A DNA stretch of 64,000 bases from Bacteroidota bacterium (GTDB lineage Bacteria > Bacteroidota > Bacteroidia > JAHEXY01), in assembly GCA_023251875.1 (NCBI GenBank), contig JAHEXY010000005.1, forward strand, positions 62,001 to 126,000, given 5' to 3'. Positions 5,320-7,984 of this stretch are shown in pieces. The translations under genes and the position numbers were made by a program. The notes below the pieces were generated by a model that saw nothing but the letters and a program-made list of their open reading frames with translations, did not search any database and was not told the DNA's origin. The stretch's first letter is position 1. Every line of letters begins with the position of its first letter.

Positions 5320-5374
5320 TTTTTTATAACTATTTTTTGCCTTTAATTCTCACTTAATCGGAACTATGAAATTT

Positions 5375-5410
5375 CTCCCTCTCCTTTGGAGAGGGTTGGG
5401 GAGAGGTCTT
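5375..5410. repeat. Dispersed CCCTCTCC hairpin repeat, copy 1
   Basis: Arms CCCTCTCC (5377-5384) and GGAGAGGG (5388-5395) around TTT, followed by the tail GGTTGGGGAGAGG. It is one of eight related copies in the window. It overlaps the stop codon of the anti-sigma-like gene and may shape the mRNA end there. Confidence 0.8.
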
Positions 5411-6780: not shown

Positions 6781-6811
6781 ACTAAGACGACAATTGTTTG
6801 TTAAACGTTGG
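6781..6811 (-). promoter_or_regulatory. Putative ECF promoter of the sigma gene
   Basis: On the minus strand the element reads CCAACGTTT (6811-6803), a spacer, then TCGTCTTAGT (6790-6781). There are 17 bases between the AAC of the -35-like box and CGTC of the -10-like box, the canonical ECF layout. It matches the element at 7954-7984 at 25 of 31 positions with identical spacing. The start codon of the sigma gene is 57 bp downstream. Confidence 0.65.
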
Positions 6812-6830
6812 CTCAACATTAAAATATTTT

Positions 6831-7838
6831 TTATTTGATTAAATAGCGGATTGAAAGTTCGTGGCTTAAATCTACAGCATGGTCAAATAGATTCCCAGAC
6901 CCTATGCTGTATGCTAATCGAATATTCTTAATTTGAAAACCTGCTAGTCCTAATATAATATCATTTGTATTAAATCCGCCACCTATTTCAATTCCCTTGT
7001 ATTTAGCACTCGTTGTAATTTGAGTTTCTAATGTAGACCAATTTTCATATGTATCGTCATAGCCCCCAATTTCTATATTAGGATTGATGCTTAATTTATT
7101 TGTTAATTTAAATGAATAGCCTATTTGTAGATTTAATTGATATAATCCAAAGTTAAACCCAGAATAATTGGTCTTTGATTCTCCATTGTATATCGTAGAG
7201 TCATTTTTTTGACTAATTCTAAAAAGGTTTCTGGCGGTTATCCCAATGTAAAATTTCGCTGTATTTAATACAGCCCCTAATGACAAGTTTACCCCCAACT
7301 TCTCGCTTGTTGAAGAACGAAAGCGTATTTCGGATGAATCCTCATCATAGTCATTTGAGTGATTATAGAAAAAATTAGATTCAATACCGGTCGCAAGCTG
7401 AGCTTTATCACCAATATTAAAACGCCTACTATAAATCGCAGACAAACTAATAACTTGATTTTTTGCATCGTATGTACTAAAAAAATTATCTGTTTTATGG
7501 GTCGTGGCGGTATATTCTAAGCCACTTTTAACATATAGGCCTACTCCTCCTTTTAACGTATTGTAATATTGGTCATATCCCACATATGTTAAATTTTCAA
7601 AATTGCGCCACCATTTGCTATTCGTGGGGCCAAAATTTGAATAATTAGGGCTTATCCTATTTACTATGTTTACTTTACCATCTATTGAAGATCCCGCAAA
7701 AGCAGGGTTGTTCATCAAATTGGTTGCTCCAAATTGATGAAAACTTTGCGCCTTGCTATCAAATACCCTTAAAAAACTTATCGAAATAATTACTATTACC
7801 GTTAATGCTATTAGATTTACTTTATTTTCTGTTTTCAT
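6831..7838 (-). CDS. PorP/SprF family outer-membrane protein (divergent)
   Basis: 335 residues. An N-terminal hydrophobic segment ('LIALTVIVIISISFL') ends in a signal-like 'SKAQ'. Then comes 'SFHQFGATNLMNNPAFAGS', the PorP/SprF opening, with 'YVGYDQYYNTLKGGVGLYV' and a barrel-like strand series to 'HELSIRYLIK'. The tail resembles that of the other porP at 4426-5319 ('HEISLRCLIK'). It is the first gene of the porP-sigma-anti-sigma-porP group. Upstream lie a putative ECF promoter (7954-7984) and a standard Bacteroidota -7 box (8127-8134), so it could be both constitutive and induced. Confidence 0.85.
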   Translation of the reverse strand: MKTENKVNLIALTVIVIISISFLRVFDSKAQSFHQFGATNLMNNPAFAGSSIDGKVNIVNRISPNYSNFGPTNSKWWRNFENLTYVGYDQYYNTLKGGVGLYVKSGLEYTATTHKTDNFFSTYDAKNQVISLSAIYSRRFNIGDKAQLATGIESNFFYNHSNDYDEDSSEIRFRSSTSEKLGVNLSLGAVLNTAKFYIGITARNLFRISQKNDSTIYNGESKTNYSGFNFGLYQLNLQIGYSFKLTNKLSINPNIEIGGYDDTYENWSTLETQITTSAKYKGIEIGGGFNTNDIILGLAGFQIKNIRLAYSIGSGNLFDHAVDLSHELSIRYLIK

Positions 7839-7953
7839 TTCATCTATTTTTTTAATTGGTTAATAATTTCGTTGGTGATTACTAACCTTTCTTTCTTCAA
7901 CGCTTGGGTTTTGAGAGCTCGTAAACATGCATGTTTTAATTTTGCTTTCATAT

Positions 7954-7984
7954 ACTAAGACGAGACAAGTTTGCCAAACGTTGG
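7954..7984 (-). promoter_or_regulatory. Putative ECF promoter of the porP/sprF gene
   Basis: The minus strand reads CCAACGTTT (7984-7976), a spacer, then TCGTCTTAGT (7963-7954), with 17 bases between AAC and CGTC. It is the second copy of the element upstream of the sigma gene. The porP start codon is about 115 bp downstream, leaving a leader of roughly 105 nt. Confidence 0.62.

Follow-up and report, generated by a model that had tools for sequence, protein, structure and literature searches.

A predicted self-regulated ECF sigma factor module linked to PorP/SprF and type B cargo genes of the T9SS in a Bacteroidota bacterium

Introduction

To our knowledge, little is known of how Bacteroidota tune the T9SS, or match type B adhesins to PorP proteins, beyond SigP of P. 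gingivalis and one flavobacterial transcription-start map. SigP is an ECF sigma factor whose T9SS targets include porP, and its autoregulation has been reported (PMC4800418, PMC8265659, PMC7712824). In Flavobacterium psychrophilum, the SM6 promoters carry CGT in the -10 box and, in the printed selection of targets, precede the genes of GldN, PorU and a PorG homologue and one ECF sigma/anti-sigma pair; which sigma factor reads SM6 was not established in that work (PMC9723704). The Das/Dma (ECF21) pairs of Bacteroides thetaiotaomicron consist of a sigma gene followed by the gene of a membrane anti-sigma factor, Dma, in which an N-terminal anti-sigma domain, a TM helix, a disordered tether and a C-terminal outer-membrane barrel are combined (PMC13088901). 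At the protein level, PorP-like proteins act as binding partners and anchors of type B cargo (PMC9143113).

Here we analyse a stretch of 64,000 nucleotides (hereafter the window) from the genome of a Bacteroidota bacterium. It contains what appears to be a sigma/anti-sigma/porP module that regulates itself and has a defined bipartite promoter; the module recurs in several lineages, and its predicted targets are porP genes, type B cargo genes and sometimes a core T9SS operon.

Results

The gene cluster reads, on the minus strand, porP2, the ECF sigma gene, the gene of a membrane protein and porP1 (Table 1), after which come genes for an OmpH-like protein, a lipoprotein-like protein and a secreted metalloprotease. 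The sigma protein is short and made of regions 2 and 4 without region 3 (Sigma70_r2, 40.3 bits; r4_2, 59.6 bits; TIGR02937, 85.4 bits), which places it among the ECF sigma-70 factors. PorP1 exceeds the cut-offs of both PF11751 and TIGR03519 and is a member of the PorP/SprF family. PorP2 is probably a divergent member, at 64.9 bits over the PF11751 cut-off of 22.3 and, with TIGR03519, at 63.8 bits under the NCBIfam cut-off of 90.55. porP1 starts 89 bp after the membrane protein gene and may belong to the sigma operon. The 89-bp gap (5320-5408) contains a short inverted repeat, CCCTCTCCTTTGGAGAGGG.

Two minus-strand elements, one upstream of the sigma gene and one upstream of porP2, had been proposed as ECF promoters in a sequence-only reading of the window. 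The two are identical at 25 of 31 bases without a gap, as that reading had it; both conform to AACGTTT-N13-CGTCTTAGT, and exactly 17 bases separate AAC from CGTC in each. The looser pattern AACGTTT-N{10,16}-CGTCTTAGT matches at these two places only, in agreement with the statement that the window holds no third copy, and 0 matches are expected from 100 dinucleotide shuffles. When the two 151-bp upstream regions were shuffled, an ungapped match of 25/31 arose in 1 of 2000 trials. The site of the sigma gene ends 57 bp upstream of the start codon (ATG 6724) and that of porP2 116 bp upstream (ATG 7838). A porP2 leader made from the predicted promoter would be about 110 nt long, which we count against the promoter reading.

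Table 1. Positions of the genes, predicted promoters and related features (window coordinates unless a contig or locus is given)
Feature	Position	Strand	Remarks
Predicted ECF promoter of the sigma gene	6781..6811	(-)	-35 CCAAC 6811-6807, -10 CGTCTTA 6789-6783; exact match
Predicted ECF promoter of porP2	7954..7984	(-)	-35 CCAAC 7984-7980, -10 CGTCTTA 7962-7956
ECF sigma factor, 190 aa	6152..6724	(-)	Pfam Sigma70_r2 and r4_2, TIGR02937, all above cut-off
Probable anti-sigma factor, 251 aa	5409..6164	(-)	overlaps sigma 3' end; N-terminal segment and TM helix as in relatives
porP1, PorP/SprF-family outer-membrane protein, 297 aa	4426..5319	(-)	PF11751 E 1e-50, 173 bits; TIGR03519 204 bits
porP2, probable divergent PorP/SprF-family protein, 335 aa	6831..7838	(-)	predicted target of the second site; PF11751, TIGR03519
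Third perfect site	contig C22		38 bp before ATG of 1088-aa T9SS type B cargo gene, then porP/sprF
Fourth perfect site, CAACGCTTTGCAAAATTTAGTCGTCTTAGA	C10:223405-223434 (L088:6406-6435)	minus	intergenic, antisense toward 3' end of a CarboxypepD_reg outer-membrane gene
Type B-tailed proteins after sigma in relatives	L082:6537-7778, L083:6538-7794, L142:2084-3349, L132:3465-4472, L138:3242-4525, L139:2027-3061, L140:3390-4511, L146:2027-2959, L172:2055-3176

Homologues of the sigma factor were drawn from the class, the window genome being the only one of its family and order in the set. CAAC-N16/18-CGTC was counted within 120 bp upstream of the start and was found before 21 of 82 sigma homologues versus 3 of 451 other nearby genes. 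Where a PorP or PorG-like gene adjoins the sigma gene, the motif was present in 13 of 14 cases, versus 8 of 66 without such a neighbour (Fisher test, 8e-9, kinship ignored), a link that stems from few independent lineages, the tree offering too few contrasts for a phylogenetically corrected test. Motif and T9SS neighbour occur together in the row of the window and in two clades, one made up of L066-L073 and the other of L084 with L125-L158; the position of the window sigma itself in the tree is unsupported. Sigma, short anti-sigma, porP is the usual order in the second of these clades, and in L084, L145 and L147 the porP gene after the pair carries a second site of its own.

This type of site stands directly upstream of sigma homologues, on the sense strand, in several families. 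In 28 aligned sites AAC and CGTC are invariant with 16 or 17 bases between them, these letters having been required by the search patterns; the T or TT after CGTC and the C after AAC are also mostly conserved, though the patterns did not require them. The proposed ECF promoter layout thus appears borne out by the layout itself and by its recurrence before the sigma gene in distant homologues. On the same grounds, the sigma gene carries a candidate autoregulatory promoter with AAC as -35 and CGTC as -10 element, 16-17 bases apart. The further proposal, that the sigma factor controls itself and a PorP gene, gains support from the sites before the sigma homologues and before porP in L084, L145 and L147, provided that the sigma factor recognises these sites, as we infer.

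Across the 4.8 Mb genome, CCAACSYTT-N13-CGTCTT, which was generalised from four sites, has four perfect matches. Its halves at 31 other spacings gave 2 matches in all versus 4 at N13 (Poisson, ~7e-7), a value that is somewhat circular because the pattern was written after the sites had been seen. The cargo behind the third perfect site contains DUF7948, PKD and CHU_C/TIGR04131 domains, and the hits to CHU_C and TIGR04131 (58.3 and 47.1 bits) at residues 1002-1088 of 1088 mark it as type B. The sequence-only reading had raised the possibility of further members of the regulon in the genome: the C22 site, before a type B cargo-porP operon, provides one more sense-strand candidate, and the C10 site is an antisense orphan. 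Close behind this orphan there is no ORF of at least 60 aa and no terminator-like structure; it might be a small RNA promoter or else a relic. Its assignment to an XdhC-like gene was ruled out by a strand check, the site pointing the other way. Searches in the same genome with AAC-N17-CGTCTTAG allowing one mismatch, and with the long site allowing two, were discarded; the matches lay mostly inside genes.

Eight PorP/SprF genes are present in the genome, three of which belong to the units described here (porP1, porP2 and the C22 operon). No credible site was found upstream of the other porP genes, of the core porP-gldKLMN operon (L226) or of another type B-porP pair. Because the core operon has no site, the predicted regulon looks narrow in this genome, comprising PorP partners and one type B cargo; and since the second type B-porP pair also has none, general control of the T9SS genes does not hold here. 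The genome contains two gldM/porM genes (C11:472364-473995 and C10:20920-22485) and possibly two T9SS motor sets. It also contains ten sigma-like matches, with two paralogues at 35-36% identity. Upstream of one paralogue (L086, 5934-6560) lies a site-like sequence with another -10 box, TAACC...TGTCTA, and upstream of the gene preceding the other (L087, 5940-6581) lies CAACC...CATCTA, also site-like with a different -10 box. These variant boxes may show each paralogue's own specificity.

The patterns used on relatives' genomes were chosen from the sigma sites and not from the targets; the targets therefore provide a fair test. The five GCAAC-N16/17-CGTCTT sites of genome G082 each lie upstream of a gene or operon of the same strand: the sigma gene, the porP gene after the anti-sigma gene, a porP-porK/gldK-gldL-porM-porN operon, and two genes for type B cargo, one of 2694 aa with porP and one of 1049 aa with porP and a PorE-like gene. 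In G087, the five CAACCTTT-N12/14-CGTCT sites are all intergenic, before the genes of the sigma factor, a type B protein, a type A protein and a LamG protein and before an 85-aa ORF. G209 has a second site upstream of a PorG-like gene. Some of the matches in G245 and G254 are intragenic or lie upstream of genes that bear no T9SS mark; one stands before a type A cargo gene. The core T9SS operon porP-K-L-M-N of G082 (L219:2602-8754) has a site and its equivalent in the window genome has none; core genes seem to enter and leave the regulon.

The membrane protein encoded after the sigma gene has a short N-terminal domain, one TM helix (about residues 52-70) and a low-complexity tail ending in PDIVPVPVEGF, and matches no curated family in Pfam or NCBIfam. 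It shares an IDxxF...W..FE..L segment and the single TM helix with the proteins that follow sigma in relatives, which points to a probable anti-sigma factor. The proteins after sigma in relatives take three forms. Many of those surveyed end in an outer-membrane barrel, as Dma of B. thetaiotaomicron does (PMC13088901), and several sigma homologues adjoin such barrel-type anti-sigmas. In nine relatives the protein carries a C-terminal T9SS type B sorting domain (CHU_C, 40-67 bits; cut-off 27), in several cases with PKD domains, behind an anti-sigma-like N-terminus and TM helix; we found no description of such cargo-like anti-sigmas in the literature searched. The third form, a short protein with porP next, is seen in relatives and in the window. 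We suggest for these anti-sigmas a role in monitoring either the outer membrane or the T9SS, and those ending in a T9SS sorting domain hint at a direct readout of the secretion state.

Discussion

Very probably, the sigma factor activates its own gene together with parts of the protein-display machinery of the cell. We consider it likely that it reads both window elements as promoters, is restrained by the anti-sigma factor encoded after it, and has as targets the sigma/anti-sigma genes, PorP2, and the C22 type B cargo with its PorP. According to this model, the membrane anti-sigma would keep the sigma factor at the inner membrane until a signal, presumably from the outer membrane or related to the T9SS, frees it. 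The free sigma factor, together with RNA polymerase, would then use the CCAAC...CGTCTTA promoters. The output would be more sigma and anti-sigma (with more PorP1 if a single operon includes it) and more PorP2 and, from another place in the genome, a type B T9SS cargo and the PorP/SprF protein that partners it. In this way the supply of PorP outer-membrane partners would be matched to that of type B surface cargo.

Could the sites be genuine ECF promoters that a paralogous sigma factor reads, or several with overlapping specificity, the neighbouring sigma gene being a cascade target? The number of sigma-like matches in the genome, including the two paralogues at 35-36% identity, would allow it, and overlap among ECF factors was considered for SM6 in F. 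psychrophilum (PMC9723704). We nevertheless regard this as unlikely, as the site precedes this sigma factor's own homologues in many lineages and the nearest sequences before two paralogue loci have TGTCTA and CATCTA as -10 boxes. It is very improbable that the repeats bind another regulator that co-controls sigma and porP2, such as a response regulator like PorX or some other DNA-binding protein. PorX of P. gingivalis does bind the sigP and porT promoters, but its footprint is AT-rich, unlike these sites (PMC8265659); moreover, AAC and CGTC form separate boxes, the ECF distance between them being fixed and the spacer variable, always close upstream of sigma homologues and on the sense strand.

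That the two sites resemble each other by chance, or through a recent local duplication without function, is hardly credible. The shuffled regions did yield a match as good, if rarely, and no gene follows one of the four genomic sites; against this, the likeness of the window sites ends at their edges, their spacers differ, and homologous genes in other families have comparable upstream sites.

A wider scheme, which we put forward tentatively, is that the module is a T9SS surveillance switch. The anti-sigma factor might watch the outer-membrane step, its tail, in some relatives, being engaged by PorP or the translocon, and the short anti-sigma of the window might use a separate PorP instead; once released, the sigma factor could then tune type B cargo and PorP partners and, where a genome places it in the regulon, the core porPKLMN operon. 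The short promoter CAAC-N16/17-CGTCT beside a sigma/anti-sigma/porP cluster is searchable, which opens the regulon to genome-by-genome listing and to tests with simple reporters.

Several described systems resemble parts of this module. As for SM6, ECF-type promoters precede T9SS genes and a sigma/anti-sigma pair, and a PorG-like gene is also a target here, in the relative G209; unlike here, the printed selection of SM6 targets includes no porP or type B cargo gene (PMC9723704). With SigP the window sigma factor shares the tie of an ECF sigma factor to T9SS genes including porP, and autoregulation, which is predicted here. SigP differs in that it works with PorX and is activated via PorY, no downstream anti-sigma being listed for it, and its host has a single type B cargo. 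The motif proposed for SigP, C(T)AAA(G/C/T)A(T)A(C)T(A/G)A, also differs from the window sites, CCAACGTTT...CGTCTTAGT.

The gene order, sigma followed by a membrane anti-sigma, is that of Das/Dma, and in many surveyed relatives the anti-sigma also has the C-terminal outer-membrane barrel. The 251-aa window protein, unlike Dma, has no barrel domain in Pfam or NCBIfam and is followed by a separate porP gene; Das/Dma has been linked to vesicles and polysaccharide loci, not to the T9SS (PMC13088901). Lastly, the work on PorP/SprF-type B pairs concerns protein anchorage and, in the part used here, reports no shared sigma control of porP and cargo (PMC9143113); the C22 operon and two operons of G082 combine exactly these genes, each behind a site of the type described here.
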